Shown here: piece by piece, positions 3,740-19,015 of the stretch | Position numbering within the stretch: position 1 is the first letter of the stretch | Layout: each line of letters opens with the position of its first letter | Source: Sphingopyxis macrogoltabida | GTDB taxonomy: Bacteria > Pseudomonadota > Alphaproteobacteria > Sphingomonadales > Sphingomonadaceae | Direction: 5' to 3' | DNA length: 64,000 nt | Assembly (NCBI RefSeq): GCF_001314325.1 | Contig: NZ_CP009429.1 | Location: forward strand, 1,240,501 to 1,304,500 | The notes under the pieces: generated by a model | What the model was told of the DNA's origin: nothing | What the model saw: the letters and a program-made list of their open reading frames with translations, nothing else | Database searches by the model: none | Program-made: the position numbers and the translations under genes

Positions 3740-4106
3740 GGTGCTCAGCCTGGGTTTGTCCCGAAGACTCTGGAAAGCCCGTCCGGTGCCCGCCACCGGA
3801 TCAGGCACATAAGCCGGACCGCGGAGCCGACTTTAAGCCCGCAGGACAGCGAGAGGGAAACGGCTTAGGATATGGGGGAAAGGGGCGAAAGGTGCCGCGG
3901 ACGGCTCCGCGCGCCTGATAAGCTTCGACTTCCGAGCTGAGACGAGTTCCCGGCGTAAAGTGCTTCCGTCCCGTCTTTCGGGCTGGAGAGATGTATGCGC
4001 AGATCGTGCTGAACCGGGCTTGAAGCGTGTGGCATTCGTTCGCTTCGGATTCGAGGGGTGTTCACCGGCCGTGCGTAATACATGTGAGGCTGGCTAAGGA
4101 ATGAAC
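3740..4106. other. Intergenic divergent region, 367 bp
   Basis: Lies between the divergent small secreted gene and the sigma-factor operon. Apart from the ECF-type promoter at 4053-4079 I see no gene. It is relatively rich in G runs (GGGGGAAAGGGGCGAAAGG near 3874), but none is followed by GCGTA at the spacing of the regulon motif. Confidence 0.5.
4053..4079 (+). promoter_or_regulatory. ECF-sigma-type promoter, copy 1 (sigma operon itself)
   Basis: GAGGGGT at 4053-4059, 13 bases, then GCGTAAT at 4073-4079. This is one of six copies in the window with identical spacing, all ahead of metal-resistance genes. The gap between GGGG and CGTA is 15 bases, typical for -35/-10 elements of ECF sigma factors. 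The expected transcript start, near 4086, leaves a short leader before the ATG at 4107. Position implies autoregulation of the sigma operon. Confidence 0.75.
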
Positions 4107-4391
4107 ATGGACATGGATTTAGACAGCGCGTTGCGCCGCCTTGCCGAGCAACCGCTTCATCCCGGGCTCGCGGAACTGGAAGGCGACGTCATGCGGCTGG
4201 TCGCGGCGAAACGGCGCGCGGGCGCGGGAGTGACGTTGCGATCCGGCATGCTGGCAGCGCTGGGCGCAGTCGCTTTGGGAGTGGTGGGCGGCGGATTGTC
4301 GTCCAACGCGACGACTGCGCAGGTGCCGACGCTAACACCCTTCGGGCCTGCCATGCCGCTAGCGCCTTCGACCTTACTCGCGTTCCAGTGA
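4107..4391 (+). CDS. CnrY-like small membrane anti-sigma factor
   Basis: About 94 residues: a short acidic cytosolic segment (DLDSALRRLAEQPLHPGLAELEGDVMRLV), then one membrane helix (MLAALGAVALGVVGGGL) and a short outer tail. Size, topology and position directly before a CnrX-like sensor and an ECF sigma gene match CnrY-type anti-sigma factors, which hold the sigma factor at the membrane. Sequence similarity in this family is low, so the call rests largely on context. ATG 4107 is chosen over ATG 4101 because AAGGA at 4096-4100 touches 4101 but lies six bases ahead of 4107. The stop overlaps the next start (GTGA). Confidence 0.65.
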   Translation: MDMDLDSALRRLAEQPLHPGLAELEGDVMRLVAAKRRAGAGVTLRSGMLAALGAVALGVVGGGLSSNATTAQVPTLTPFGPAMPLAPSTLLAFQ

Positions 4392-4831
4392 CGAGCGGCG
4401 GCCAAAGGACGATGCTGATCGCCATCGTCGCGTTCGTGGCGGCGGTCGCAGGCGTGTGGGCTGGACGCGAATTGTTTCCTGCGCCGACGAGCCCGGGCGT
4501 GGAGCTTCATAGCTTGCTCCACGAGGGGCTCGAGCTGGACGAAGCTCAACGGACCAAGCTCGAGACCCTGGAGTCGCGCTTCGCCGTTCGACGGCGTGCG
4601 TTGGAGCTGGAACTCAGGGCCGACAACGCGCGGCTCGCCGACGCCATCGAGGCCGAACATGGTAATGGGCCGCAGGTGGCGGCGGCCGTCGATCGTTCGC
4701 ACGGCTCGATGGGCGAGCTCCAAAAGGAGACGTTGAACCATATGTTCGCGATGCGTCAGATCCTGAGGCCCGACCAGGCGAGGACGTTTGACCGCGCGGT
4801 GGTGAAGGCGCTGACCGCAGACGCGCGGTGA
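4388..4831 (+). CDS. CnrX-like periplasmic heavy-metal sensor
   Basis: 147 residues. An N-terminal membrane anchor (LIAIVAFVAAVAGVWAG) precedes a helical periplasmic domain of the CnrX/Spy type. His41, His45, Glu62, His118 and Met122 have the same spacing as the known nickel/cobalt ligands of Cupriavidus CnrX (His42, His46, Glu63, His119, Met123; from memory). Metal binding there relieves the anti-sigma factor. It is translationally coupled on both sides: GTG 4388 overlaps the previous stop, and its own stop overlaps the sigma gene's GTG. Whether it senses copper or nickel/cobalt cannot be told by eye, but all neighbouring effectors are copper genes. Confidence 0.85.
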   Translation: MTSGGQRTMLIAIVAFVAAVAGVWAGRELFPAPTSPGVELHSLLHEGLELDEAQRTKLETLESRFAVRRRALELELRADNARLADAIEAEHGNGPQVAAAVDRSHGSMGELQKETLNHMFAMRQILRPDQARTFDRAVVKALTADAR

Positions 4832-5400
4832 GCCTTGATCTCACGGCCTGCACGGACGGCGAACTCGCCGCCTTGACGCTCGGCGGACGTCAGGCTGCGT
4901 TCGCTGAGATCATGCGGCGGCACCAAAGACCGGTCTACCGCCTGATCCGCTCGCATATCGGCGACGCCGAAGAGGCGCTTGACCTCACTCAGGAATGCTT
5001 CGTGGCCGCCTTTCAGAACTTGCGAGAGTATGACGGAGATCGGCCGCTCTCTGCGTGGCTGACCCGCGTGGCGATCAACAAGAGCCGCGACTGGCATCGG
5101 CGGCGGCGCATACGCCAGATATTATCGTTCGCCTCTTCGCTGCCGCCCGAGACGATCGAGGGTGAGCGGGACGAGGCGCCAGGTGCCGACGCCGTCACCT
5201 TCGACCGTGCCAAGCTTGCTCGGCTTTCGCGCGCGGTGTCCGAGCTGCCGGCCACGCTCAAGGAGACGCTCTTGCTACGGACCGTGGAAGGGTTGTCCCA
5301 AGCGGAGACTGCGGCCGCGCTGGGGATCAGCGGCAAGGCCGTGGAGACGCGGCTCCGGCGCGCGCGTGAAAAATTGTCGAAAATTCTCAACTTCGCATGA
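4828..5400 (+). CDS. ECF RNA polymerase sigma factor, CnrH/RpoE-like
   Basis: 190 residues with sigma region 2 (FAEIMRRHQRPVYRLI, DLTQECFVAAFQNL, SAWLTRVAINKSRDW) and region 4 (LSRAVSELPATLKETLLLR, then the EGLSQAETAAALGISGKAVETRLRRA helix-turn-helix). Region 3 is absent, as in ECF sigmas. It starts at a GTG overlapping the sensor's stop, so all three regulatory proteins are coupled. The promoter of copA overlaps its own TGA stop. The likely regulon is defined by the six GAGGGGT-N13-GCGTAAT sites. Confidence 0.93.
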   Translation: MSLDLTACTDGELAALTLGGRQAAFAEIMRRHQRPVYRLIRSHIGDAEEALDLTQECFVAAFQNLREYDGDRPLSAWLTRVAINKSRDWHRRRRIRQILSFASSLPPETIEGERDEAPGADAVTFDRAKLARLSRAVSELPATLKETLLLRTVEGLSQAETAAALGISGKAVETRLRRAREKLSKILNFA

Positions 5401-5425
5401 GGGGTTGGGCCGGTTCGAGCGTAAT
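5399..5425 (+). promoter_or_regulatory. ECF-sigma-type promoter, copy 2 (copA)
   Basis: GAGGGGT at 5399-5405, 13 bases, GCGTAAT at 5419-5425. The first two bases lie within the TGA stop of the sigma gene. It stands about 65 bases ahead of the copA start and should drive copA-copB and perhaps the DUF305 gene. Confidence 0.75.
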
Positions 5426-5490
5426 GATGGGTAAGGTCGGCGGCCCCCCCGCCGCCGGCCGCAAGCATTCAACTGGAGCGAAGGAACGGC

Positions 5491-7548
5491 ATGAGCCGCA
5501 ATTTGAACCGGCGCGACGTGATGCGCGGAACCGCCATGCTAGGCGGCACCCTGGCCATGTCGGCTCACCTGCCAGCTTGGGCGCAAGCTGTGTCGCGCGG
5601 CATCGCCAAGCCCCTGCCGACCGTGTCGGGCACAAACATCGCGCTGACGATCGACCGGATGAAGCTGGTCATGGACGGAATCACGACGCCCGCGATCGGG
5701 GTGAACGGCACGGTCCCGGCGCCACTCGTCCGCCTCAAGGAAGGCCAGAAGGTCCGGCTCGCGGTGACCAACAATCTCGACGAGGATAGCTCGATCCACT
5801 GGCACGGCCTCATTCTGCCGTTCCAAATGGACGGCGTGCCGGGCATCAGCTTCCCCGGCATCAAGGCACGTTCGACCTTCGTGTACGAGTTCCCGGTCGT
5901 GCAGTCGGGCACCTACTGGTACCACAGCCACTCGGGCGAGCAGGAGCAGGACGGGCTCTACGGCCCCATTGTGATCGATCCCGCGGGGCCCGACCCGATC
6001 GCATTCGACCGCGAGCATGTGATCGTGCTGTCCGACCATAGCCAGATGACCGGCGAGGAGATCTTCCGCAAGCTCAAGCAGATGGGTGGCGCCTATTTCA
6101 ACTATCAGCGCCCGACGCTGAGCGGGCTGCTCGCCGGCCGTGAAATGCCCCTCAAGGATCGCCTAAAGTGGGGGCAGATGCGGATGGACCCGGCCGATAT
6201 TGCGGATGTCACGGGGTCTACCTACACCTTCCTGGTCAATGGCTTCGGGCCTTATGACAACTGGACGGGTCTCTTCCAGCCAGGCGAGCGGGTTCGGCTA
6301 CGCATCGTCAACGCCGCGGCGCAGACCAACTTCAACGTCCGCATCCCTGACCTGCCGATGACGGTGGTGCAGGCCGACGGCCAGAACGTCCGGCCCGTCG
6401 CCGTGGACGAGTTCCAGATCGGGGTTGCAGAGACGTTCGACGTGATCGTGACGCCTGGCGACCGCGCCTACAGCTTCGTGTCCGAAGCGATCGACCGTTC
6501 CGGCATGGGGCGCGCGACCCTTGCACCGCGCGAGGGCATGATCGCCCCAGTCCCGCCGCTGCGTCCGCGCACCCTGCTGACTATGACCGACATGGGCATG
6601 GACATGGGAAGCATGGAGGGCATGTCCGGGATGTCCGACGAGAACCCGGTGGCAAAGCGCGGCCTCGACCCCACGGTCCAGCAGAACGCATCGCGTAACC
6701 TGTGGAAGCTAACCGGCTGGAAGGGGCCGACTGACCACGGAGCGGTCGCGGTTGCGTCCGGCATGGCGGGCATGGCCGGCATGGGTCATGGCCAAATGAC
6801 CTCCGGCGCGATGGCGGGAATGGACCACAGCCAGATGGGTGCCGGCGCGTCGGGCATAACCCCAAGCCAGACGGGCAGCGGCGGCATGGCGGGGATGGAC
6901 CACGGCGCCATGCAAGGCGGTGCAGGGCAGGCCGGTGGAATGGCCGGAATGGATCACGGCTCCGGGGGCATGAGCATGGACATGAACATGCGCAACCCGA
7001 AGAACGCGCCCGGCGTCAAGATGGGGCCGGGGGTGCAGACCATCTCGCCGATGCCGAAGGACCGCACAAGCGAGCCGCCACAGGGGCTGGAGGACGTCGA
7101 TCATCGCGTGCTCACCTATCGGGATCTCGTTGCGCTGGATCGCAACCCGGACGTGCGTGCGCCATCGCGCCAGTTGGAAATTCACCTGACGGGGAACATG
7201 GAGCGCTACATGTGGGGCTTCGACGGCCAGAAGCTGAGCGATCCAGCGGACCCCATTCCGTTCCGAAAAGACGAGCGGGCGCGGGTGACATTGATCAACG
7301 ACACGATGATGCCGCACCCGATCCACCTGCACGGCCACTTTTTCGAACTAGTAACGGGCCATGGCGACCAGGCCCCACGCAAGCACACCGTAAACGTGCC
7401 GCCCGGAGGCAAGATGACTTTCGACGTGACGGCAGATGCGCCCGGTGACTGGGCGTTCCACTGCCACAATCTCTATCACATGACCGCAGGCATGATGCGT
7501 GTCGTAACCGTTCGCCCGATGGGTGAGGAGAGTCGCGATGCGGGCTAA
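5491..7548 (+). CDS. copA: Copper resistance multicopper oxidase CopA
   Basis: 685 residues. A twin-arginine signal (NRRDVMRGTAMLGG, cut after AWA) exports the folded enzyme to the periplasm, where CopA oxidises Cu(I) and binds excess copper. Copper-ligand motifs are IHWHG (about residue 103), YWYHSHSG (142), HPIHLHGHFF (609) and the C-terminal HCHNLYHMTAGMM (656), giving type 1, 2 and 3 centres. Between the second and third cupredoxin domains is a long Met/His-rich insert (residues 367-503) with repeats such as GMDHSQM and GMDHGAM. AAGGA five bases ahead supports ATG 5491. The copB start overlaps its last codons. Confidence 0.96.
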   Translation: MSRNLNRRDVMRGTAMLGGTLAMSAHLPAWAQAVSRGIAKPLPTVSGTNIALTIDRMKLVMDGITTPAIGVNGTVPAPLVRLKEGQKVRLAVTNNLDEDSSIHWHGLILPFQMDGVPGISFPGIKARSTFVYEFPVVQSGTYWYHSHSGEQEQDGLYGPIVIDPAGPDPIAFDREHVIVLSDHSQMTGEEIFRKLKQMGGAYFNYQRPTLSGLLAGREMPLKDRLKWGQMRMDPADIADVTGSTYTFLVNGFGPYDNWTGLFQPGERVRLRIVNAAAQTNFNVRIPDLPMTVVQADGQNVRPVAVDEFQIGVAETFDVIVTPGDRAYSFVSEAIDRSGMGRATLAPREGMIAPVPPLRPRTLLTMTDMGMDMGSMEGMSGMSDENPVAKRGLDPTVQQNASRNLWKLTGWKGPTDHGAVAVASGMAGMAGMGHGQMTSGAMAGMDHSQMGAGASGITPSQTGSGGMAGMDHGAMQGGAGQAGGMAGMDHGSGGMSMDMNMRNPKNAPGVKMGPGVQTISPMPKDRTSEPPQGLEDVDHRVLTYRDLVALDRNPDVRAPSRQLEIHLTGNMERYMWGFDGQKLSDPADPIPFRKDERARVTLINDTMMPHPIHLHGHFFELVTGHGDQAPRKHTVNVPPGGKMTFDVTADAPGDWAFHCHNLYHMTAGMMRVVTVRPMGEESRDAG

Positions 7549-8830
7549 GCTCCTCCTGATCGCCGGTGGCGCAGCGCTCGGCCTGGCAACGCCGGCGGTC
7601 GCGCAGATGGACCATTCCAATATGCCCGGCATGAAGATGCCACCGCCGAAGACGCCAGCGGTGAAAAAGCCCGCCGCTAAGAAGCCAGCAGCGACCAAGC
7701 CCGCCGCGCGCAAGAAGTCCGTGAAGCCCGCCGCTAGATCGACACCGCGCGCGAAGCCGAGTTCGGGGGCCAGGCCGGCCGAAAGTCGGTCCGCCAAGCC
7801 TCCGGCCCCTGGAACGGTCGTTGCCGATCCTCACGCCGGTCATGACATGTCGGCCATGCCGGGCATGAATACGCCCGGAGCCAACCCCAATCCTGGTGCC
7901 GGGCACGACATGTCGGCAATGCCAGGTGTGGCAGGCGCCAACCCCGCCAACCCAGGTGCTATGCAGGGCATGGACCATGGGTCGATGCAAGGAATGGGCC
8001 AGGGCTCGGGCACGATGCAAGGCATGTCGGGACACGACATGGAAGGCATGCCCTCAGTAATGGGCGCGGCGATGGTCGGCACCAACCTGCCTGCCGGCAA
8101 CGCTCCGCCGCCACCGATCCCGACGGATCGCGCCGCGGACCAGGTCTACTCTGCCGCCGCCATGGCGCATTCGCAGCAGCATTTGCGGATGCACGGCGGG
8201 CAGAATTTCTCGCAGGTCATATTCAATCTGGCTGAAGTCCAGATCCGCGACGGTCGCGATGGCTACCGGTGGGACGGCAGTGCCTGGTATGGGGGTGATA
8301 TCAACCGGCTGGTGCTCAAGACCGAGGGCGAAGGGAATATCGGGGGAAGCTTGGAAGCGGCGGAGGTGCAGGCGCTTTATTCGCGCGCCATTGGCCCATA
8401 CACCGATATACAGCTTGGCGTCCGCTACGACTTCAAGCCCAACCCTTCGCGTGTCTATGCGGCGGTCGGCTTTGAAACGCTTGCACCCGGCTTCTTCGAT
8501 GTCGAGGGCGCGCTGTTCCTGTCCAATAAGGGCGACCTGCTCGGGCGGCTGGAAGGCTATTACGATCAGCGGATCACGCAGCGGCTGATCCTTCAGCCAC
8601 GCGCCGAGTTCAACTTCGCCGCGCAGGACGTACCGGAAATTGGCATCGGCTCCGGCCTGTCCGCGGCCGAACTCGGACTGCGTCTGCGCTACGAGATCAG
8701 GCGCGAGTTCGCGCCCTATGTGGGTATTTCGTACGATCGCAGGTTCGGGGACACCGCCCGCCTCGCACGCGCTGAGGGCCAGGGGGCGGCGTCGACCAGC
8801 CTCGTTCTGGGCGTCCGCACTTGGTTTTGA
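7538..8830 (+). CDS. copB: Outer-membrane copper resistance protein CopB
   Basis: 430 residues. A signal peptide (LLLIAGGAALGLATPAVA) is followed by a Pro/Lys/Ala-rich stretch with KKPA repeats, a Met/His-rich region (GHDMSAMPGM twice, GMDHGSMQGM), then the CopB domain from about residue 190 (FSQVIFNLAEVQIRDGRDGYRWDG to the C-terminal barrel strand SLVLGVRTWF). CopB is thought to bind or transport copper at the outer membrane with CopA. ATG 7538 overlaps the copA stop by 11 bases and has GAGGAG seven bases ahead. An upstream GTG at 7523 is less likely. Confidence 0.94.
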   Translation: MRAKLLLIAGGAALGLATPAVAQMDHSNMPGMKMPPPKTPAVKKPAAKKPAATKPAARKKSVKPAARSTPRAKPSSGARPAESRSAKPPAPGTVVADPHAGHDMSAMPGMNTPGANPNPGAGHDMSAMPGVAGANPANPGAMQGMDHGSMQGMGQGSGTMQGMSGHDMEGMPSVMGAAMVGTNLPAGNAPPPPIPTDRAADQVYSAAAMAHSQQHLRMHGGQNFSQVIFNLAEVQIRDGRDGYRWDGSAWYGGDINRLVLKTEGEGNIGGSLEAAEVQALYSRAIGPYTDIQLGVRYDFKPNPSRVYAAVGFETLAPGFFDVEGALFLSNKGDLLGRLEGYYDQRITQRLILQPRAEFNFAAQDVPEIGIGSGLSAAELGLRLRYEIRREFAPYVGISYDRRFGDTARLARAEGQGAASTSLVLGVRTWF

Positions 8831-8878
8831 GGCCGATCAGGGTTTGTTGGGTTGACTGAGTCCAAGAAGGAGAAGTCA

Positions 8879-9262
8879 ATGTTTAAGACAATTACAGTTC
8901 TGGCTCTGGCGGCGATGGCAGCGAGTCCAGCTTTGGCTCAGCAGCAGACGCAAGGCATGGACCACTCGAAAATGCAGGGCATGAACCACGACAACATGCC
9001 TGGCATGAACACGCCCTTCATGCCCGCCGAGATGGCGATGCAGAAAAAGATGATGGCGGCCAAGGGCGCCAATGCGAGCGAGACGTGGATCCGCAAGATG
9101 ATCGAGCATCACCGCGGTGCGATTGCCATGTCGCAGATCGTTCTGCGCCAATCACCCGATGCGAAGACCCGGCAAATGGCTGAGAAGTCGATTGCCGAGC
9201 AAAACAAGAGCATTGGCGAACTCCAGGCGATGCTCCAGTCGATGGGCAAGCGTCCTCAGTGA
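8879..9262 (+). CDS. DUF305 periplasmic copper-associated protein
   Basis: 127 residues. The signal peptide (FKTITVLALAAMAASPALA) is followed by Met/His repeats (GMDHSKM, GMNHDNM) and the DUF305 helical domain with its signature MIEHHRGAIAMS. DUF305 proteins are usually found with copper genes; the HH pair and methionines are likely ligands. ATG 8879 has AAGGAG at 8867-8872, six bases ahead. The 48-bp gap to copB carries no obvious terminator, so it is probably the last gene of the copA transcript. A strong hairpin follows. Confidence 0.85.
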   Translation: MFKTITVLALAAMAASPALAQQQTQGMDHSKMQGMNHDNMPGMNTPFMPAEMAMQKKMMAAKGANASETWIRKMIEHHRGAIAMSQIVLRQSPDAKTRQMAEKSIAEQNKSIGELQAMLQSMGKRPQ

Positions 9263-9269
9263 TAACCTT

Positions 9270-9307
9270 CGTTCCTCCCGCCCCACAACGAGCGGGCGGG
9301 AGGAACG
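9270..9307. terminator. 14-bp perfect hairpin between DUF305 and DUF411 genes
   Basis: CGTTCCTCCCGCCC (9270-9283) pairs with GGGCGGGAGGAACG (9294-9307) over a 10-base loop, eight bases after the DUF305 stop. It has no T-tract. It may end the copA-copB-DUF305 transcript or only attenuate it, because the next gene has its own ribosome site (AAGGAG at 9310-9315) but no visible copy of the ECF promoter. Confidence 0.65.
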
Positions 9308-9322
9308 ACCAAGGAGTTTCCC

Positions 9323-9772
9323 ATGAAGACAGCTTTGCGATCCGCGTTTACTGCCGCAGCCTTGTTGGTTCCGGTTGCCGTCAGCGCGGCCACCCCGATC
9401 GTCATGCACCGCGATCCCGGCTGCGGCTGTTGCGCCAAGTGGGCCGCGCAGGTGCAGCGGCAGTTCGGGCGCCAGGTGCGCGTCGTCGATGATCCCAACC
9501 GCCCGGCGCTGCAAAAGCGCGCGGGGGTTCCTGCGGACGTCTCGTCCTGCCACACAGCAATCGCCGATGGCATGGCTTTCGAGGGCCACGTGCCGATCGC
9601 CGACATGAAGCGGGCTCTCGCGACCCGGCCCAAGGGTGTGCGGGGCCTCGCGGTCGGCGGCATGCCGCTCGGCTCGCCGGGAATGGAAGTGCCCGGCGTC
9701 AAGGCGCAGGCCTATGACGTGGTTGCCTTCGGTTCCGGCGGGCGCCGCCTGTTCGGTCGCCACGGCAGCTGA
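9323..9772 (+). CDS. DUF411 family metal-binding protein
   Basis: 149 residues with a signal peptide (ALRSAFTAAALLVPVAVSA) and a DUF411 domain: MHRDPGCGCCAKWAAQV with a CGCC cluster, a later SSCHTA cysteine, and GLAVGGMPLGSPGME. The fold is thioredoxin-like. Members accompany copper and silver resistance genes as periplasmic metal binders. ATG 9323 follows AAGGAG with a spacing of seven. It lies on the same strand as copAB, beyond the hairpin. Confidence 0.88.
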   Translation: MKTALRSAFTAAALLVPVAVSAATPIVMHRDPGCGCCAKWAAQVQRQFGRQVRVVDDPNRPALQKRAGVPADVSSCHTAIADGMAFEGHVPIADMKRALATRPKGVRGLAVGGMPLGSPGMEVPGVKAQAYDVVAFGSGGRRLFGRHGS

Positions 9773-9859
9773 TCAGCCGCCGCAGCCAGCTTAGCTCCGC
9801 CATCAGAGCCGTCTTGAAGAGCAGACGGAAAGTCTCACAGAAAAAGCCAACGGGCGGGT

Positions 9860-9886
9860 GAGGGGCGAAGGCGGCGCGTGCGTAAA
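9860..9886 (+). promoter_or_regulatory. ECF-sigma-type promoter, copy 3 (DUF2231 gene)
   Basis: GAGGGGC at 9860-9866, 13 bases, GCGTAAA at 9880-9886. Same spacing as the other copies, with C for T in the upstream element and A for T at the end of the downstream one. It stands 35 bases ahead of the ATG at 9922. Confidence 0.7.
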
Positions 9887-9921
9887 CGGAATTAGATGAA
9901 CACAGATCAAGGGGACGGGTG

Positions 9922-10647
9922 ATGGGCGTTAAAAGAGGCGGAGCCTTCGCTATACTTCTTGCGGTTGCAATGTCAGTCAGCACGGCGGCATCGGCGCACG
10001 AAGACCACAACGCTCTCGGGGCCGGTCCCGGGCCAGTCGCTAACAGCGCAGCCGAGACGCAGAAAGCGGATGGGGCAGACGCTGGCGATGGCCACATGGG
10101 CATGGGCTCTATGTCGACAGTGGACATGAACATGGGCGGCCGCGATATCGCCGGCGACGACATGGACATGGGGGGCATGCACGAGGAAGGCGCCAACAAG
10201 AACAAGAGTTTCGGCGAACGGCTGGTGAGCTGGCTGGGCCGCCTGCACACCATGGTCATTCATTTTCCCATCGCCCTGTTCATCGGTGCGTTCGGGGTGG
10301 AGCTTTTCGGGTTGTGGCGCCGCAACCGGGACTATCAGCATGTCGCACACATAATGCTGGCCGTCGGCGCCCTGGGAGCGATCGCGGCGGCGTTCCTGGG
10401 CTGGTTCGCGGGTGGCTTCTACCTGACCGACCGCAACCCCATCCTGATGACGCATCGCTGGCTCGGCACATTGATCGCGGTGTTTGGCGTCGCGCTGGCT
10501 TGGATGGCAGCGCGCCACCGCAAGGGTCCGGACCGGTCTCGGACGTTGTACTGGGTGGTGCTTGGCCTGATGACGCTGGCGATCTCGATCCAGGGGTTCC
10601 TCGGCGGAACCTTCATGCATGGCGGAATAAACCACTTGGCGTTCTGA
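9922..10647 (+). CDS. DUF2231 membrane protein with Met/His-rich leader
   Basis: About 241 residues. The signal peptide ends near ASAHEDHNA. A Met-rich periplasmic stretch follows (GHMGMGSMSTVDMNMGG, DDMDMGGMHEE), then a DUF2231 domain with four membrane helices beginning LHTMVIHFPIALFIGAF and ending FLGGTFMHGGINHLAF. DUF2231 proteins are uncharacterised; the HFP histidine and the C-terminal HGG are typical. ATG 9922 (AAGGGGA just upstream) is preferred over GTG 9919. It is driven by its own copy of the ECF promoter, so it is a probable regulon member acting on copper at the membrane. Confidence 0.82.
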   Translation: MGVKRGGAFAILLAVAMSVSTAASAHEDHNALGAGPGPVANSAAETQKADGADAGDGHMGMGSMSTVDMNMGGRDIAGDDMDMGGMHEEGANKNKSFGERLVSWLGRLHTMVIHFPIALFIGAFGVELFGLWRRNRDYQHVAHIMLAVGALGAIAAAFLGWFAGGFYLTDRNPILMTHRWLGTLIAVFGVALAWMAARHRKGPDRSRTLYWVVLGLMTLAISIQGFLGGTFMHGGINHLAF

Positions 10648-10952: not shown

Positions 10953-11963
10953 CTACGTCGGTGGTACGCTGCGAGCGAGACACAACCCGGCGATGGCGGA
11001 TGCCAATCCGCTGTCGCGGTTGCGCAACAAATTATGGATTGCGGTCGCAGCGACCGCTGCTTGTCCGGTTGCGACGCTGATCTGATCGAGCCCCTCCACA
11101 ACGTCGCCAACCGCGTAGAGGCCAGCAACCGAGGTTTGTTGGTGGGCGTCCGTCAGCACGCACCCTGTTGCGCTGAGCTTCGCCCGCAGCGAAGAGGCGA
11201 GCCGCGTTCGAGGCGACGAGCCGAGCGCCGGGTAAAGCGTGTCGAATTGTAGCTCAAGGCCATTGGCCAGCCGCACCTCGACATAGTCACCAAGACGCAG
11301 CTGCTCGACGGGCGAGGGGGCGACATCTATGCCCTGCTGGTTCAGCTTGGCAAGTTCGGTCGGTCCGAGGTCGAGCGAGCATTCCGCTAGAAGCGTGACC
11401 TTGGCGCCATAGGCGCGCAGAAATTCGGCTTCTTCAGCGCCATGGCCGTCGCAGCCGAGCACCGCCACGTTCGTCCGCCGAGCCTCATAACCATCGCAAA
11501 TCGGGCAGTAGCGGAGAAGACCACGCGCCACGCCGATGTCATGCATTGCATCGGGCATCTCTGGACGTTTATTGACGACACCGGTAGCGAGGACAACGGT
11601 CCGCGCGTGCAGGATGTTCAGCTCGCAGCTTGCCGAGAAGTGGTCGCCTGACGCGACGATTGCGTCGATCTCACCGCTTTGGACCGTACCGCCATATTCG
11701 TGCAGCTGAGCCTGCAATCGCGCAAGAAACGTGACGCCGGAAATGCCTCCGGGAAATCCTGGCAGGTTGTGCGAACGCGGGATGGAGGCGGCGCGTCCCG
11801 CCGCCGCGTCGTAGACGACGCAGCTCCTGAGAAACCGGGACAGATAGATTGCGGTCGTGAGGCCTGCGGGACCGCCGCCCACAATCAGACAGTCGATGAC
11901 CTCCTCGGGATCGCCAGTCCAGCCTTGATTGGTCAACCGCAACCTCATCATTACCCCGCGCAA
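10953..11963 (-). CDS. Thioredoxin-reductase-like FAD/NAD(P) oxidoreductase
   Basis: 336 residues. The FAD-binding GxGxxG motif is IVGGGPAGLTTAIYLSR (residues 27-43), followed by ATG near residue 126, a redox-active CPICDG near residue 151, a second nucleotide-binding segment (VAVLGCDGHGAEEAEF) and the C-terminal GLYAVGDVV. This is the low-molecular-weight thioredoxin reductase fold. ATGs at 11951 and 11948 are alternative starts. An ECF-type promoter (12038-12064, - strand) stands 75 bases ahead, divergent from copC, placing it in the copper regulon. A role in thiol repair or Cu-stress redox balance is inference; its partner protein is unknown. Confidence 0.88.
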   Translation of the reverse strand: MRGVMMRLRLTNQGWTGDPEEVIDCLIVGGGPAGLTTAIYLSRFLRSCVVYDAAAGRAASIPRSHNLPGFPGGISGVTFLARLQAQLHEYGGTVQSGEIDAIVASGDHFSASCELNILHARTVVLATGVVNKRPEMPDAMHDIGVARGLLRYCPICDGYEARRTNVAVLGCDGHGAEEAEFLRAYGAKVTLLAECSLDLGPTELAKLNQQGIDVAPSPVEQLRLGDYVEVRLANGLELQFDTLYPALGSSPRTRLASSLRAKLSATGCVLTDAHQQTSVAGLYAVGDVVEGLDQISVATGQAAVAATAIHNLLRNRDSGLASAIAGLCLARSVPPT

Positions 11964-12037: not shown

Positions 12038-12064
12038 AATACGCGCCGATGCCGCTGACCCCTC
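12038..12064 (-). promoter_or_regulatory. ECF-sigma-type promoter, copy 4 (flavoprotein gene)
   Basis: On the - strand: GAGGGGT (12064-12058), 13 bases, GCGTATT (12044-12038). It reads toward the thioredoxin-reductase-like gene and lies only 33 bases from the divergent copC copy, making a back-to-back pair. Confidence 0.75.
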
Positions 12065-12097
12065 ATGCAGAGGGTGGGGCGGCGCGAAAAAGATCGT

Positions 12098-12124
12098 GAG
12101 GGGTTACCCGTCCGGCTGCGTAAT
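12098..12124 (+). promoter_or_regulatory. ECF-sigma-type promoter, copy 5 (copC-copD)
   Basis: GAGGGGT at 12098-12104, 13 bases, GCGTAAT at 12118-12124. The following 8 bases (ACAGGTGA) also resemble copy 1 (ACATGTGA). It reads toward copC. Confidence 0.75.
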
Positions 12125-12158
12125 ACAGGTGAGCCCAATTGAAATGGAGATTGCCAAA

Positions 12159-12527
12159 ATGCGCCGCTTGTTCATCACGACTGCCGCCGCCGCCCTGTTC
12201 TTCGCAGGGGGCGTGGCGAACGCGCACCCGAAGCTGGTGTCCTCCAGCCCCGCCGCCAACGCGGCCGTCGCGACCCCCGAGAAGATCAGCCTTCAGTTCA
12301 GCGAGAAACTCGTGCCGGCTTTCTCCAAGGCCGAACTTACCATGGCAGCGATGCCGGGCATGGCGGCCATGAAGATGCCCAGCAGCGCCGCAGTCGGCGC
12401 CGATGGCCGGACGCTCACCATCACCCCGAAGCAGCGCCTCCCGCGTGGGCGCTACAGCGTCGGCTGGCAGGTCGTCTCTAGCGATACACACAAAATCACC
12501 GGCAGCTACAACTTCACGGTGAAGTGA
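12159..12527 (+). CDS. copC: Periplasmic copper chaperone CopC
   Basis: 122 residues. The signal peptide (FITTAAAALFFAGGVANA) ends immediately before the conserved mature N-terminus HPKLVSSSPA, whose first His is a Cu(II) ligand. The Met-rich Cu(I) loop is MAAMPGMAAMKMP, and the fold ends with SSDTHKITGSYNFTV, typical of CopC. ATG 12159 is chosen because GGAG at 12146-12149 lies nine bases ahead. An upstream frame start at 12096 would lie inside the promoter, and ATG 12144 has no ribosome site. copD begins four bases after the stop. Confidence 0.94.
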   Translation: MRRLFITTAAAALFFAGGVANAHPKLVSSSPAANAAVATPEKISLQFSEKLVPAFSKAELTMAAMPGMAAMKMPSSAAVGADGRTLTITPKQRLPRGRYSVGWQVVSSDTHKITGSYNFTVK

Positions 12528-12531
12528 GCGA

Positions 12532-13458
12532 ATGCTCGACTGGCCGACCGTCGCCATCCGCTTGGCGTTATACCTGGTCCTGGCGGCGCTGTTCGGCCTG
12601 TCGGCCTTCAGCCTCTATGGTCTTCGTCTTGGCGAGCGCGATGATGCAATCGCGCTGCGGCCTTGGCTCACGACAAGCGCGGCGTTCGGGTTGCTGCTCT
12701 CGGCCGCTGGCCTGATCCTCATGGCCTCGGCGATGGCCGGTTCTCCCTTCTGGCCGATCGACCAGGCAGCGGTGGCCGCGCTGCTGGGGGGCCCACCGGT
12801 TGGCACCGCCTGGAAGGTGCGCATGGTGGCACTGGTCATCGCCGGCGGTGCGGCCCTGCTGGCGCGAGGCAGAGCAGCGTGGCTGGCTATCGCCATGATT
12901 GCCGCCGCCGCGGCATTGGCGACACTCGCGTGGAACGGGCACGGCGCCATGGACGAGGGAAGCACCGGATGGCTTCACCTCGGTGCGGACATCCTCCACC
13001 TCTTGGGAGGCGGTATATGGGTCGGCGCGCTGTTCGGATTGCTTCTCCTGTTGACGCGTCGCGCCGAGGAGATCGATGCCGCGCACCTTCGGCTGACCCA
13101 TCGCGCCCTGCATGGGTTCGGCGCCGTCGGCACGGTCGTGGTTGTTACCTTGGTGGTCACCGGCTTGATCAACAGCTGGCTGCTCGTCGGCCCAGCCAAT
13201 TTCATGGCCTTGGGGACGACGCTCTACGGCCTGCTGCTGCTCGCAAAGCTGGTCTTGTTCGCCGGGATGCTGGGGCTCGCTTCGCTTAATCGGTTTCGCC
13301 TCACGCCGGCCTTTGAGCGCTCGATTGCCATGAACGACCATGGCGGGGCGCTTACGGCGCTACGGGCCAGCCTCGCGATCGAGACAGCCTGCGTGATCGG
13401 CATCCTGGCGCTCGTGGCATGGCTAGGCACCCTCGCGCCACCCGCGTCGGGCATGTAG
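12532..13458 (+). CDS. copD: Inner-membrane copper transport protein CopD
   Basis: 308 residues with eight or so membrane helices. Family features are the first helix (AIRLALYLVLAALFGLSAFSLY), the GWLHLGADILHLLGGGIWVGALFGL segment with conserved histidines, and LLLAKLVLFAGMLGLASLNRFRLTPAF. CopD is believed to carry copper across the inner membrane, receiving it from CopC. The start is four bases after copC, so they form one operon. The next gene begins 211 bases later without a visible ECF promoter. Confidence 0.93.
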   Translation: MLDWPTVAIRLALYLVLAALFGLSAFSLYGLRLGERDDAIALRPWLTTSAAFGLLLSAAGLILMASAMAGSPFWPIDQAAVAALLGGPPVGTAWKVRMVALVIAGGAALLARGRAAWLAIAMIAAAAALATLAWNGHGAMDEGSTGWLHLGADILHLLGGGIWVGALFGLLLLLTRRAEEIDAAHLRLTHRALHGFGAVGTVVVVTLVVTGLINSWLLVGPANFMALGTTLYGLLLLAKLVLFAGMLGLASLNRFRLTPAFERSIAMNDHGGALTALRASLAIETACVIGILALVAWLGTLAPPASGM

Positions 13459-13669
13459 GCGCTATGGACCAACCGTCCACGCAAGCGCCGCTCAGGCCTT
13501 CCTTGCGCGGCTTAACCCTCGCCTCCCAAGACACCCCCGCTTGGACTGAGCTTACGTGTCCAATGCCCTAAGTCGCCCACAGACGCTTGCGGGAATGCCG
13601 CCTCGCGCTGCAAAGCTGGGCGTGCGAGAGGATTGGTCCGGATGGGCCTCTCAGCGTTTTCAGAGATGA

Positions 13670-16381
13670 ATGAACAAGGGTGGCAAAGTCATGACCGATG
13701 ACAAACGCAGTGAAGCCGGCAGCGGCCAAGGTGGCGGCGACGTTGTTCTGATCACGGGCGCGAGCGGCTTCATCGCCGCAGCGCTGATTGCCCAGCTCGG
13801 CGAGCGCTACACGGTCGTCGGCCTCGATCGCGCCGGCCCTCCAGACCCACCGCCGCCCGCGGCGGCGATCGACATAGACCTCGGGGCGGACGAAGCGGTC
13901 CGGGTTGCGCTTGACGAGGTGCGCGCACGGTACGGCAACCGCATCGCCTCGGTGATCCACCTCGCCGCCTACTACGATATTACGGGCGATCCCAATCCGC
14001 TCTACGACAAGGTCACCGTGCAGGGCACCCGCCGGCTGATTGACGGGCTGCAATCGTTCGAAGTCGGACAATTCGTCTTCGCCAGCACGATGCTCGTTCA
14101 TAAGCCGACCCCCACACCAGACGAGCGCATCAACGAGGACTCGCCGATCGGCGCGTCCTGGGCCTATCCGCAGTCCAAGGTCGACGCCGAGACATTGCTG
14201 CATGAGCGCCACGGAAACATCCCCGTCGTTTATATGCGCGCCGCCGGAGTTTACGACGACGACGGACGCTCGGCTTTTCTCGCGCAGCAGATATCGCAGA
14301 TTTACGAGCACCGCCTGATTTCGCATTTCTATCCGGGCATGCTGTGTGCGGCGCAGTCGTCCGTGCACCGCGACGACTTGGCTGACGCCGTGCTGCGTCT
14401 GGTCGATCGGCGGCACGAACTGCCGTCAGAACTGCCGCTGCTCATCGGCGAGCCCGACGCACCCGGCTATGCCGAGATCCAGGACATCGTCGGCGAGGCG
14501 CTCCACGGTGAGGGCTGGAAGACGATCCGGATTCCGCAGCCGCTCGCGAAAGCCGGGATCATCCTGCAGAACGAAGCGCTCGGCAGCGACGACTTCATCC
14601 AGCCCTGGATGATCGACAGCAGCAACGACCACTATATCCTCGATGTCTCCCGCGCGCGTTCGCTGCTCGGATGGGAGCCGAAGCACAATCTTCGCGACAC
14701 GCTGCCGACGATCGTTGCCGCGTTGAAGCGTCATCCCGGCGCCTGGTATCGGAACAACAAGCTCAACGAGAACCTGGTCGCCTGGAACGACAATCAAGCT
14801 TCCAAACCTGCGGAGCCGGACCACCGCCAAGCTGAAGCGGCAGTCGCCGGAATGGCCGGTATGGATCACGGCGGGATGGACCACAGCAAGATGGACCACG
14901 CGGCGATGGGGCACGAGACCGGCGGCGCGGGCGCGGCGATGTCGGGCCATGGCGGGCACGGCGATCACATGGCCTTGATGGACCGCGATGAGCGCCGTGC
15001 CCGCTGGGCGCTTTACGCCAACATCGGTCTCGGTCTGTGGCTCGCCTCCAGCCCGCTCATATACGATTCCGTGACCACGCAGAGTGTCGGCGAAGCCGCG
15101 CGCTTCGTAACTATTGATCGCGGGCTGCCGTCGATCGAGTGGCGGGCGAACGCGCTGGCGATCAGCGACGTCGTCAGCGGGTTCGCCATCGCGCTGTTCG
15201 GTGCACTTTCCCTGTCAGCCCGCACGAAGACATGGGCGCAGTGGGCGGTCGCATTCGTAGGCATCTGGCTGTTCTTCGCCCCGCTGATCTTCTGGAGCCC
15301 GAGCGCCGCTCAGTACAACAACAACCTGCTCATCGGCTCGGCCGTGATCGCCCTGTCGGTGCTCGTGCCGATGATGCCGGGCATGAGCATGGCGGGCATG
15401 ATGGACCCCAAGAACACCCCCCCCGGCTGGACCTATTCGCCCTCGACCGACGCCCAGCGGCTGCCGATCGTCGCCATGGCGCTGATCGGGCTTCTGACCT
15501 CGCGTATTCTGACCGCGTATCAGTTGGGTCACATCGATACAGCCTGGGAGCCGTTCTTCGTCGGATCGCTGACCGATCCTCGCAACGGGACGGAGGAGAT
15601 CATTACCTCCAACATGTCGAAGGCGTGGCCGATCCCTGACGGCGGGCTCGGCACGATCAGCTACGTGCTCGAAATCCTGATGGCGGTGATGGGCACCCGC
15701 GATCGCTGGCGCACCATGCCGTGGATGGTGGCCTTCTTCGGCATTCTGGTCATCCCGCTCGGCGTCGTCAGCATCTACTTCATCATCAGCCAGCCCATCG
15801 TCATCGGCACGTGGAGCACGCTCGCGCTGATCGCCGCACTCGCCATGCTGATCATGATCCCGTTCGCGCTCGACGAGGTGATTGCGATGGGTCAGTTCCT
15901 TCTCTGGGCACGCCGGCAAGGCAAGCCGCTGATCCGCACCTTCTTCCAGGGCGACGCGATCGAAGCCGGTGGAGAGGACACGTCCGACGCGATGGTCTCG
16001 CCAAGCAGCTTTTGGGCGGACGCGAAGAAGGGTATGACCCTGCCATGGACGCTGACTGCGAGCATCGTCATCGGCGTCCTGCTGATGCTTACCCGGGTCC
16101 TGTTCGGCACGGAAGGCGGTATGGCGAACAGCGATCACGTTGTGGGTGCGCTGGTCATCACGGTCGCGATCATCGCCACCGCGGAGGTTGCCCGCGCGCT
16201 ACGGCTGATCAACGTCGCGTTCGGGGCCTGGCTCGTGGCCGCGCCTTTCCTGCTGAACGGCGTTGGTCACCTTGGTGCCGTGGCCTCGGTCGTAGCCGGC
16301 ATTGCGCTTGTCGGTCTCAGCTTTCCGAGGGGGAAGCGCAGCGCCGAGCATTATGCAAGCTGGGACAAGTACGTGATCTGA
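13670..16381 (+). CDS. Fusion: NAD-dependent dehydratase + Met/His linker + SPW/VKOR-like membrane domain
   Basis: 903 residues in three parts. Residues 20-370 are an extended-SDR NAD-dependent epimerase/dehydratase: Rossmann motif LITGASGFIAAAL, IHLAAYYD, FASTMLVH and the catalytic YPQSK. Residues 390-440 are a soluble copper-type linker (GMAGMDHGGMDHSKMDH, GHGGHGDHM). Residues 445-900 are a polytopic membrane region with three SPW-like motifs (LWLASSPLI, IWLFFAPLI, AWLVAAPFL) and a middle section resembling the vitamin K epoxide reductase fold (SYVLEILMAVMG, QPIVIGTWSTLALI) but lacking its cysteine pairs. ATG 13691 is an alternative start. It follows copCD. The biochemical role is unknown; a copper-linked membrane function is inferred from linker and position. 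Confidence 0.85.
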   Translation: MNKGGKVMTDDKRSEAGSGQGGGDVVLITGASGFIAAALIAQLGERYTVVGLDRAGPPDPPPPAAAIDIDLGADEAVRVALDEVRARYGNRIASVIHLAAYYDITGDPNPLYDKVTVQGTRRLIDGLQSFEVGQFVFASTMLVHKPTPTPDERINEDSPIGASWAYPQSKVDAETLLHERHGNIPVVYMRAAGVYDDDGRSAFLAQQISQIYEHRLISHFYPGMLCAAQSSVHRDDLADAVLRLVDRRHELPSELPLLIGEPDAPGYAEIQDIVGEALHGEGWKTIRIPQPLAKAGIILQNEALGSDDFIQPWMIDSSNDHYILDVSRARSLLGWEPKHNLRDTLPTIVAALKRHPGAWYRNNKLNENLVAWNDNQASKPAEPDHRQAEAAVAGMAGMDHGGMDHSKMDHAAMGHETGGAGAAMSGHGGHGDHMALMDRDERRARWALYANIGLGLWLASSPLIYDSVTTQSVGEAARFVTIDRGLPSIEWRANALAISDVVSGFAIALFGALSLSARTKTWAQWAVAFVGIWLFFAPLIFWSPSAAQYNNNLLIGSAVIALSVLVPMMPGMSMAGMMDPKNTPPGWTYSPSTDAQRLPIVAMALIGLLTSRILTAYQLGHIDTAWEPFFVGSLTDPRNGTEEIITSNMSKAWPIPDGGLGTISYVLEILMAVMGTRDRWRTMPWMVAFFGILVIPLGVVSIYFIISQPIVIGTWSTLALIAALAMLIMIPFALDEVIAMGQFLLWARRQGKPLIRTFFQGDAIEAGGEDTSDAMVSPSSFWADAKKGMTLPWTLTASIVIGVLLMLTRVLFGTEGGMANSDHVVGALVITVAIIATAEVARALRLINVAFGAWLVAAPFLLNGVGHLGAVASVVAGIALVGLSFPRGKRSAEHYASWDKYVI

Positions 16382-16570
16382 AAGCATCTTCAATCACTGC
16401 TGTCCCGGTTCGCGATCACGATCTGGTCGCAGGCGACGATCGCCCGCCAGCTCTCCGGCGCGGCGATGTTCATCATCATGCCCTTGGTGGTCGCGCACGC
16501 CGACCAATGCTGCTAATGAGAGTTGTTCGCATAGTCCGCGACGAGTGAAGCTTGGAATCGACTGACCCGT
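16382..16570. other. Intergenic stretch, 189 bp, possible gene remnant on - strand
   Basis: No promoter copy is convincing here. On the - strand a short protein-like reading frame (about 16391-16510, stop at 16391-16393) runs through HWSACATTKGMMMNIAA and SWRAIVACDQIVIANRD, but has no clear start. It may be the decayed 3' end of an older gene. Confidence 0.25.
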
Positions 16571-18505
16571 ATGCCGTCACCTTTGGTCGCGCTGGTCGCG
16601 TCGCTCATGCTGCTGTTGATACCCGCTACGGCGATGGCCGATACCCGCGATGTTGAAACTGCTTGGCGTCTGCTTGACTATATGGCGGTCGATTATGGCG
16701 GTGCGGTCGCCAACGGCTCGGTCACAAGCGCGTCCGAATATGCGGAGATGACGGAGTTCGCCGCTGGGGTGTCGACGCGCCTGCGCGCGCTCCCGGTCGG
16801 TCCTGAACGGCGAGCACTGGTCCAGCGGGCTTCGCAGCTCGAAGCCGTGATCGGCCGCAGGGGCTCGTCCCAAGAGGTCGCGACCCTCGCGCATGGTCTC
16901 GCCGCCGATCTGCTCAAGGCCTATCCGGTGCCGCTCGCCCCAGCCAAGGCACCCGACCCCGCCATGGGAACAAGGCTATACGTCCAAAGCTGCTCGTCCT
17001 GCCACGGCCTCACCGGCGACGGACATGGGCCTGACGCTGCCAAGCTCGCAACGCCGCCGATCGCGTTCACCGATGCCGAGCGGGCGCGCCAGCGCAGCGT
17101 GTTCGCGCTCTATCAGGTGATAAGCCAAGGTATCGATGGAACCGCGATGCAGAGCTTTGCCGATTTGCCGAACGATCAACGCTGGGCGCTGGCGTTCCGC
17201 GCCGGCAGCTTTGCCGCAACCGATGCGCAAGCGGTCGAAGGCGAACGCCTGTGGAAGTCGGACGCGAGCTTGCGGGCACGAATTCCCGATCTGAAAACCC
17301 TCGTCGCGCTGACCCCTGCCACGCTCGCGGGCAGCATCGGGCAGGCGAAAGCCGACGCGGTGCTCGCCTATCTGCGACGCTACCCCGATCGGGTGATGCA
17401 ACAAGCCCCGGGCTCGCTCGCGGTCGCTCGCACCAAGCTTGCGCAAAGCCTCGCCGCATTTCAGCGCGGCGACCGGCGCGGCGCAAAGGAACTGGCGCTG
17501 TCCGCCTATCTCGACGGGTTCGAGCCGATCGAACCGACGCTCTCGGCGCGCGACCCGACGCTCATGTCCCGGATCGAAGGGGCGATGGGTGAATACCGCG
17601 CTGCTGTTGAAAGCAACACCTCGCCCGATGATGTGGCCGAACGAGTGGCAGTGCTGGGCGGCCTGTTCGATGATGCCGAGGCGGCGCTCGCGCCCGACGC
17701 CGCGACGCAGGCGTCCACCTTCTTAGGAGCCTTCACAATCCTGCTGCGCGAAGGGCTGGAAGCTCTCCTGATCGTGGTCGCCATGATCGCGTTCCTCCGC
17801 AAAGCGGAGCGGCCGGAAGCCATGCGTTATGTGCATGGTGGCTGGATCGGAGCGCTCGTTGCGGGCGGGCTTACCTGGGCGGTTGCCACCTATGCAATCG
17901 GGATCAGCGGCGCGAGCCGGGAACTGACGGAAGGATTTGGGTCGCTGTTCGCGGCCGTGGTCCTGCTCTCGGTCGGAATCTGGATGCATGGCAAGGCACA
18001 AGCTGATCAATGGCAACGCTATATCCGCGAGAAAATGTCTCGCGCGCTCTCGGGCGGGTCGGGATGGTTCCTGTTCGGGCTCGCGTTCCTGGTAGTTTAT
18101 CGGGAAGTATTCGAGACGATCCTTTTCTACGCCGCGCTCTCGACACAGGGGAACACCGCGATGCTGCTGGCCGGGGCCGGCGCAGCGATCAGCCTTCTCG
18201 CCGTCATCGCCTGGGCAATGCTCCGCTACAGCCGGACGCTCCCGATTACGCAGTTCTTCCGCTACAGCTCGTGGCTGATGGCCGCTCTGACGGTCGTGCT
18301 GGCCGGTAAGGGAGTCGCTGCCCTCCAAGAGGCGGGGATCATCGACATAGCGCCGCTCGCCAGCGTGCCACGTATCTCGATGTTGGGCCTGTTCCCGACA
18401 TTTCAGTCGGTGCTGGCACAACTCCTGATGCTTGCCGCGATCGTGATCGGGTTTGCCTGGAACCGCCGCGCCAAGCCGCGGGCGGTCGGGCCGCTAGCCT
18501 ACTAG
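16571..18505 (+). CDS. Cytochrome c - FTR1 family permease fusion
   Basis: 644 residues. The signal peptide (VALVASLMLLLIPATAMA) leads a periplasmic region with a single c-type haem site, CSSCH at about residue 140 (SCSSCHGLTGDGHGPDAAKL). From about residue 385 comes an FTR1 iron permease domain with seven membrane helices. The two REGLE-type signatures are LREGLEALLIV (391) and YREVFETILFY (about 509). Such fusions couple electron transfer to Fe or other metal transport across the inner membrane. No copy of the ECF promoter precedes it; it may be co-transcribed with the fusion gene 189 bases upstream. Confidence 0.9.
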   Translation: MPSPLVALVASLMLLLIPATAMADTRDVETAWRLLDYMAVDYGGAVANGSVTSASEYAEMTEFAAGVSTRLRALPVGPERRALVQRASQLEAVIGRRGSSQEVATLAHGLAADLLKAYPVPLAPAKAPDPAMGTRLYVQSCSSCHGLTGDGHGPDAAKLATPPIAFTDAERARQRSVFALYQVISQGIDGTAMQSFADLPNDQRWALAFRAGSFAATDAQAVEGERLWKSDASLRARIPDLKTLVALTPATLAGSIGQAKADAVLAYLRRYPDRVMQQAPGSLAVARTKLAQSLAAFQRGDRRGAKELALSAYLDGFEPIEPTLSARDPTLMSRIEGAMGEYRAAVESNTSPDDVAERVAVLGGLFDDAEAALAPDAATQASTFLGAFTILLREGLEALLIVVAMIAFLRKAERPEAMRYVHGGWIGALVAGGLTWAVATYAIGISGASRELTEGFGSLFAAVVLLSVGIWMHGKAQADQWQRYIREKMSRALSGGSGWFLFGLAFLVVYREVFETILFYAALSTQGNTAMLLAGAGAAISLLAVIAWAMLRYSRTLPITQFFRYSSWLMAALTVVLAGKGVAALQEAGIIDIAPLASVPRISMLGLFPTFQSVLAQLLMLAAIVIGFAWNRRAKPRAVGPLAY

Positions 18506-18588
18506 CGGCAGGGCAGACAACGCCCCTCTCTAAAGCGTTGCCGCAACCCTGACCGTGCAATGCACCGTCTCACGCGCGATGTAACGGG

Positions 18589-18613
18589 AGGGCGGCGGAG
18601 AAAGCGCCGCCCT
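18589..18613 (-). terminator. 9-bp GC hairpin after the four-helix copper protein
   Basis: AGGGCGGCG (18589-18597) pairs with CGCCGCCCT (18605-18613) over a seven-base loop. It lies nine bases past the stop of the - strand gene and faces the end of the FTR1 gene, so it may act in both directions. No T-tract is seen. Confidence 0.5.
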
Positions 18614-18621
18614 TGGGCCAT

Positions 18622-18957
18622 TTACGCGGCCATCTTGTCGCAAGCCTCGGCGCACTTGCGGCACGCGGCGACGCAATCCTCCATGCCGTCCAGCCCTTCG
18701 CAGCTCGACGCGCACGCCAGGCAAATCTCAGCGCACTCGCGGCAGATATGCCGGTGATGCTCAGATTTCCGCGCCATGAAGTCGATCGCGACCGCGCAAA
18801 TCTGCGCACAATCGGCCATGATCTTCATGTGCTCGGGCGCGGCGTGCTTCCCGCCCATTTCCAGACAATGGTTCATCGCCATGTGAAGGCAGGTCACATA
18901 ACATTCGTGGCAGGCGTCCATGCACGCCTTCATGTCGAGGTTGATCTGGTGCATCAT
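18622..18957 (-). CDS. Four-helix-bundle copper-binding protein (Csp/DUF326)
   Basis: 111 residues with 16 cysteines in CxxxC, CxxC and CxxxxxxC spacing along amphipathic helices (KACMDACHECYVTC near the start, CRECAEICLACASSC and CVAACRKCAEAC near the end). This is the cysteine-lined four-helix bundle of Csp copper-storage proteins (DUF326), which hold many Cu(I) ions. No signal peptide, so a cytosolic Csp3-like store is likely. An ECF-type promoter copy lies 32-58 bases ahead on the - strand, so it belongs to the proposed copper regulon. Either of two adjacent ATGs (18957, 18954) may be used. Confidence 0.93.
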   Translation of the reverse strand: MMHQINLDMKACMDACHECYVTCLHMAMNHCLEMGGKHAAPEHMKIMADCAQICAVAIDFMARKSEHHRHICRECAEICLACASSCEGLDGMEDCVAACRKCAEACDKMAA

Positions 18958-18988
18958 TCATCTCCGGCTGAGCCCCCGCCCATTTGAA

Positions 18989-19015
18989 AATACGCGGCGC
19001 GCGCGCGTACCCCTT
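18989..19015 (-). promoter_or_regulatory. ECF-sigma-type promoter, copy 6 (four-helix copper protein)
   Basis: On the - strand: AAGGGGT (19015-19009), 13 bases, GCGTATT (18995-18989). The upstream element starts with A instead of G; the spacing is exactly that of the other five. The spacer is an unusual alternating CG run. Confidence 0.7.

Follow-up and report, generated by a model that had tools for sequence, protein, structure and literature searches.

A putative CnrH-type sigma factor and its probable promoters in a copper island of Sphingopyxis macrogoltabida

In a stretch of 64,000 nucleotides of Sphingopyxis macrogoltabida (GCF_001314325.1, NZ_CP009429.1, positions 1,240,501-1,304,500; hereafter the window), six copies of one two-box site, RAGGGGY-N13-GCGTAWW, stand in an island of copper genes that also encodes an extracytoplasmic function (ECF) sigma factor at 4828-5400. 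Taken as a whole, the evidence is best explained if the six sites are the -35/-10 promoters of this CnrH-type sigma, a reading that we hold to be very probable. The sites and the sigma operon are as follows, in window coordinates:

4053..4079, + strand, site 1, exact match, putative promoter of the small protein/sensor/sigma operon, found at the same place in relatives
4101..4391, + strand, small protein of 96 amino acids, candidate anti-sigma factor, CnrY-like by position, size and tail
4388..4831, + strand, CnrX-like periplasmic metal sensor (PF13801; CnrX E 3.3e-20; ligands conserved)
4828..5400, + strand, CnrH-like ECF sigma factor (Sigma70_r2 and r4_2; CnrH 4cxf E 4.2e-32)
5399..5425, + strand, site 2, exact match, putative promoter of copA
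9860..9886, + strand, site 3, exact match, putative promoter of the DUF2231 gene
12038..12064, - strand, site 4, exact match, putative promoter of the flavoprotein gene
12098..12124, + strand, site 5, exact match, putative promoter of copC-copD
18989..19015, - strand, site 6, exact match, putative promoter of the four-helix copper protein gene

A first-pass annotation had proposed these six sites and had reported no further copy in the window. Indeed, the pattern matches exactly at 4053+, 5399+, 9860+, 12064-, 12098+ and 19015-, there is no seventh exact match within the 64 kb, and each site is directed into its named gene as claimed, while 100 dinucleotide shuffles of the window gave a mean of 0.01 exact matches and a maximum of 1. 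The copA site stands before copA as described, but it overlaps the sigma stop codon (TGA, 5398-5400). When up to two mismatches are allowed, the window holds 9 matches against 3.95 expected, hence the three that are not exact are background. The whole genome (5,748,623 bases in three contigs) holds 8 exact matches to the pattern and one to its reversed control, which speaks against equal numbers of matches at random places. The two exact matches outside the window, C1:4402822- and C1:4417352- (C1 being the contig that also holds the window), both belong with a second sigma-copA cluster, and all eight exact sites of the genome thus lie in or near the two sigma clusters. With up to one mismatch the genome gives 18 matches against 21 for the control pattern, therefore such matches carry no weight by themselves; two of the ten additional ones (4418751- and 4418805+) precede the second anti-sigma-like gene and the second copC.

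On sequence grounds the operon is a CnrYXH-type module by its sensor, sigma, gene order and promoters, with the small protein as a candidate counterpart of CnrY. Its overlapping genes at 4101-5400 follow the order Y-X-H (small protein, sensor, sigma) of the nickel/cobalt resistance system of Cupriavidus metallidurans, and this order is kept on plasmids. The best PDB match of the sigma is CnrH (4cxf, over residues 10-188), and CnrX is the best solved relative of the sensor, in which H, H, E, H and M align with what we take to be the CnrX ligands H42, H46, E63 and H119, and with M123. Among 53 distinct sensors these residues are kept in 53, 53, 53, 52 and 51 cases respectively, the exceptions being one sensor cut short and one with V instead of M. 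According to the excerpts of PMC7689651, CnrX responds to nickel and cobalt and Met123 is required for this signalling. In the small protein a tail of the form TPFG...LAPSTLL recurs, and 29 of 51 candidates have its PFG; the end of CnrY is SPFGLLIGK, a weak tie. PDB matches of the small protein to designed repeat proteins and flagellin look like low-complexity chance and were discarded.

The promoters of the cnr system carry the same boxes. On the C. metallidurans plasmid cnrYp reads GGGG-N15-CGTA and cnrCp reads GGGG-N16-CGTA, and the two stand upstream of the regulatory operon and of the gene that follows the sigma, as sites 1 and 2 do here. In the accessible part of PMC9045368, the transcript starts of cnrY and cnrC lie 24 and 25 nucleotides before the genes, these promoters are not RpoD-dependent, and cnrY has a further RpoD promoter; if that work used the annotated gene starts, CGTA ends 9 nucleotides before the mapped start in both promoters. 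These boxes together with the mapped starts are the strongest link from the motif to the sigma. The two systems differ in that many more target sites and a paralogous second module are found here. Moreover, the sigma gene is followed by copA-copB here and by cnrCBA, which encodes the efflux pump, in C. metallidurans, and the resistance-nodulation-division pump typical of cnr/ncc is thus replaced by copABCD and other copper genes; because this output differs, the island is not a cnr determinant.

In order to see how the site behaves elsewhere, 55 of 63 loci bearing a related sigma were used (L029-L083, 950 kb in total, many of L029-L044 being near-identical copies), while L084-L091 were set aside, L085 for being a 99-base fragment and the others for their distance (at most 36% identity). 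In the 55 loci the count of AGGGG-Nk-CGTA is 163 at k = 15, against 0 to 7 at every other k from 8 to 23, and the reversed pattern occurs 0 to 14 times at any k. Downstream genes could be assigned where they resemble those of the window or of the second cluster, and this was so for 135 of the 163 sites. With a relaxed form, [AG]GGG[GAC]-N15-CGTA, a site is found upstream of copA in 43 of 47 loci, upstream of copC in 41 of 43 and, in 40 of 53, within 600 bases upstream of the sensor and so before the small protein, whereas the operon-internal control genes copB and copD have one in 1 of 47 and 0 of 38 loci. At spacing 14 the relaxed pattern scores before copA (11), copC (5) and DUF2231 (3), and at spacing 13 before copC (3) and copA (1), which we take as a by-product of G runs. 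Of the 13 loci without an operon site (L045-L054 and L057-L059), all except L050 have a site, with any fifth letter, before the leading gene of the operon, which there encodes a cytochrome c. Four loci have no strict match (L072, L078, L079 and L081), and TGAGGGA, CAAGGGT or TGGGGGA variants stand there before the operon and copA.

The consensus of 74 sites with differences at 5 or more of the 15 spacer bases, in which AGGGG and CGTA are fixed by the selection, reads TGAGGGGT, then 12 free bases, then YGCGTAW, with a spacer close to random. Among the 74 sites, the base before the A is G in 67 and the one before that is T in 62; T follows GGGG in 54, and G precedes CGTA in 71. The letters given in the first-pass pattern are therefore exact at the six window sites, but those flanking AGGGG are preferences and not rules across the 74. 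One fixed spacing could also suit a dimeric regulator, and the two-box element could then be the operator of a DNA-binding activator or repressor and not a sigma promoter. This is very improbable, given that the boxes are unlike each other and form neither inverted nor direct repeats, that all six sites are directed toward their gene, and that the boxes match the CnrH promoters. Still less probable is a likeness without function, due to shared ancestry of one copied island with duplicated promoters: the island is mobile, as seen from the 54 plasmid records that match it and from the near-identical copies in L029-L044, but the 74 sites keep their boxes (whose core letters were used for picking them) around a nearly random spacer, loci with a sigma of only 33-38% identity still keep sites, and in diverged lineages no conservation of spacers and flanks to the degree of the boxes was seen.

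The site and the sigma gene also occur together across the family. We surveyed 298 genomes, in which the exact pattern matches 113 times, all matches being used. Among the sigma matches listed, which cover 118 genomes (the tally was 129, so that up to 11 genomes with a weak sigma fall in the group with none listed, and two fragments of one G057 gene were merged), at least 79 of the 113 sites lie within 15 kb of a sigma relative and at least 59 within 2 kb, in zones that make up about 0.4% of the total sequence when 3.4 Mb per genome is assumed. On the same grouping, an exact match is present in 41 of the 80 genomes whose sigma is at least 44% identical, in 11 of the 38 that have weaker listed relatives only and in 16 of the 180 without a listed relative (first against last group, Fisher p 2e-13, ignoring the kinship of the genomes). 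The reversed pattern has about 60 matches in the same genomes by hand count, hence the 34 exact matches far from a sigma are at background level; matches before other genes (L092, L095, L100) also look like background. The earlier suggestion that the 15-base gap from GGGG to CGTA fits an ECF promoter is thus supported by one fixed spacing, orientation, distance to the start codon, co-occurrence with the sigma and the CnrH promoter boxes.

The same contig holds the second cluster about 3.2 Mb further on, at C1:4.40-4.42 Mb; this cluster has its own small protein, sensor, sigma (C1:4417461-4418012, 48% identical to the sigma at 4828-5400), copA, copB and a divergent copC-copD. Of its sites, the one between this sigma and copA (4417352-) is exact, those upstream of the small protein (4418751-) and of copC (4418805+) have one mismatch each, and a further exact one (4402822-) precedes a TonB-dependent receptor some 15 kb off. 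The first-pass annotation had proposed that the sigma of the window probably directs all six sites; this needs correction in that two sigmas of this kind, with a common type of promoter, are encoded in the genome, so both probably share targets.

By analogy with CnrYXH, the following course can be proposed. In the resting cell the CnrY-like protein (4101-4391) would hold the sigma at the membrane under control of the CnrX-like sensor (4388-4831), and binding of metal in the periplasm, copper and possibly also nickel or cobalt, would free it. The free sigma would then directly transcribe the operon that encodes it, copA-copB together with DUF305 and perhaps DUF411, the DUF2231 and flavoprotein genes, copC-copD and the gene of the four-helix copper protein, and the paralog at C1:4417461-4418012, with the same promoter type, would probably have these targets in common with it. 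The predicted target genes of the window are:

5491..7548, + strand, copA, multicopper oxidase (TIGR01480)
7541..8830, + strand, copB (PF05275)
8879..9262, + strand, DUF305 protein (profile match; CopM-like, below cut-off), probably in the copA transcript
9323..9772, + strand, DUF411 protein (profile match), perhaps in the copA transcript
9919..10647, + strand, DUF2231 membrane protein (PF09990)
10953..11963, - strand, thioredoxin-reductase-like flavoprotein with a CPIC pair (Pyr_redox_2; TIGR01292 below cut-off)
12159..12527, + strand, copC (NF033814, over cut-off)
12532..13458, + strand, copD (NF033808, over cut-off)
18622..18957, - strand, Cys-rich four-helix copper-binding protein, annotated so at the same place in the island copy of an S. 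koreensis plasmid

The first-pass annotation had also counted the DUF2231 and flavoprotein genes in the regulon. DUF2231 is very probably a real target: a relaxed site precedes it in 8 of 10 loci, all ten genes lying in near copies of the island, and relatives of 34-48% identity have an exactly spaced site in L105, L107 and L109, whose sigma is 33-38% identical. The flavoprotein is probably a target in part of the lineages, with a relaxed site before 14 of 20 genes (a count that includes L057, siteless on recheck), and genes of 48-54% identity have one in 5 of 12 diverged loci (L052, L053, L054, L058 and L059) and on plasmid L116. For the four-helix protein, which has no Pfam or NCBIfam match, the figure is 5 of 6, and these five differ little among themselves, being near copies. 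DUF305 and DUF411 are separated by a strong GC-rich inverted repeat at 9266-9310 (seen by eye), so DUF411 may not share the copA transcript.

Several results weigh against this regulon as drawn. The 96-residue small protein has no Pfam, NCBIfam or true PDB match and no relative by sequence, and 39 of the 80 genomes whose sigma is at least 44% identical have no strict match, although relaxed forms are common. Most relatives of DUF305 and DUF411 have no site of their own (11 of 30 and 4 of 37 have one), and the flavoprotein genes of L046-L051 have none, so that the claimed membership is upheld for DUF2231 by its diverged relatives and for the flavoprotein in part of the diverged loci only. Furthermore, as stated in PMC5557971, a six-gene operon that includes copA and copB went up in Sphingobium ba1 under 10 mM nickel, as did a copC elsewhere and TonB receptors, and on S. 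yanoikuyae plasmids with the gene order of this ba1 operon its head carries no site.

These last results bear on the inducing metal. The gene content points to copper, while the sensor ligand set appears nickel/cobalt-like, and in our judgement copper is probably the main inducer. The promoters could also be real in a system that senses nickel and cobalt or several divalent metals, with copper as a minor or indirect inducer, which we consider possible although rather unlikely. It would agree with the five CnrX ligand residues being kept in 51-53 of the 53 sensors, with the nickel and cobalt response and Met123 requirement of CnrX, and with the nickel response in ba1. On the other hand, the site-bearing window genes whose type is known are copper genes, and the downstream genes assigned to 135 of the 163 sites, where only window-like or second-cluster-like genes were assignable, include no cnrCBA-like efflux gene. 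On the S. yanoikuyae plasmids sites precede copC, the small protein (an AGGGT variant), copA, the receptor and DUF411, and not ALDH-AdhP-CopA-CopB, the order of the nickel-induced operon; because this operon head has no site, the ba1 data are only mixed evidence.

Known copper-linked ECF sigmas differ from the CnrH-like one described here. CorE of Myxococcus xanthus is likewise tied to copper genes, but in the excerpts of PMC10141476 it is controlled by a Cys-rich C-terminal extension with no anti-sigma; the present sigma has 190 residues, its region 4 reaches residue 183-186 and 4-7 residues follow, so that no such extension is found, and it is accompanied by a sensor and a small protein. A CorE assignment was hence rejected. 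SigAb of Acinetobacter shares a copper link and an operon with a small anti-sigma likened to CnrY, but its promoter (GTCAAC, 17 bp, CGTT) is not AGGGG-N15-CGTA, and copper genes form its indirect regulon, as far as the available text of PMC12153292 goes; this family was rejected as well. SigF-NrsF of Caulobacter crescentus is an alphaproteobacterial ECF system induced by copper and differs, by its description in portions of PMC8224329, in its NrsF anti-sigma and its DUF692, DUF2282 and DoxX targets. In the open PMC literature, judged by listings and abstracts and with subscription papers outside its scope, no paper was found on a CnrH-type sigma controlling sphingomonad copper genes.

The receptor near the second cluster extends this programme in another direction. 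A site lies 85-131 nucleotides before a TonB-dependent receptor in seven loci of seven genomes including our own, the six outside receptors (L093, L096, L098, L101, L102 and L103) being 79-91% identical to it; in L096 and L098, which are draft assemblies, the receptor site and the listed sigma are on separate contigs. All seven leaders have TTGACCTGTATATACA in common, which occurs once in our genome at up to two mismatches. The operon, with this conserved palindrome in its leader, is at L009:3724-8849 (C1:4397723-4402848), where a receptor of 900 residues and two PepSY-like genes (so called from likeness to an annotated plasmid order) are followed by a convergent hutC (279 bits against a family cut-off of 220). 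The same receptor order is found on two S. yanoikuyae plasmids, together with hutC and a sigma site in its AGGGT variant, and so it is in a third stretch, pF1. In Croceicoccus the receptor adjoins hutC and hut genes, with TGTATATACA, presumably a HutC operator, and no sigma site, while in Massilia it adjoins copA-copB and a four-helix gene, again with no sigma site. The adjoining hutC in our genome suggests a metal-histidine link, and the operon is possibly under dual metal and histidine control. In stalked cells of Caulobacter in rich medium, copper lowers the histidine degradation pathway (PMC8224329, in part). Tentatively, a metal-stress sigma may have captured a HutC-controlled operon of the receptor and two PepSY genes, with TTGACCTGTATATACA between site and start, giving a copper-and-histidine programme under a nickel/cobalt-like sensor.

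Further observations concern the neighbourhood of the island. Sphingomonad plasmids share the island at 3850-19020 of the window, 4 of the 54 matching records doing so over at least 80% of its length and several being typed as conjugative. At 13670-16381 the window encodes a 903-residue fusion of an epimerase-like domain, a VKOR domain and SPW repeats, with no site, and a 66% identical relative in L093 carries its own sigma-type site. In L054 (5142-5602) and L116 (1128-1617) a sigma-type site lies about 200 bases before a FliQ-like gene (PF01313) among copper genes, divergent from the flavoprotein and followed by a restriction-endonuclease-like gene; FliQ is not claimed as a true target. At 19027-21261 on the - strand a gene is split by a transposase insertion (about 19481-20302), its two pieces being 79-84% identical to an intact L116 relative annotated as a type II restriction endonuclease. 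A 753-base stretch of the inserted element recurs with 100% identity beside the second copper cluster (L010:1-753).

Together, the module and its sites offer a candidate regulator and promoter code for the copper islands that circulate on sphingomonad plasmids. In some lineages at least, a single envelope signal would govern DUF2231, the flavoprotein, DUF305, DUF411 and the TonB receptor, and with such a shared signal their roles in metal defence become testable. If the tentative histidine link is true, envelope metal stress would create a demand for histidine, or for handling metal-histidine complexes, and one operon would respond to histidine status as well as to metal. The finding also raises the question of how copper genes came under a sensor whose ligands are those of a nickel/cobalt sensor.

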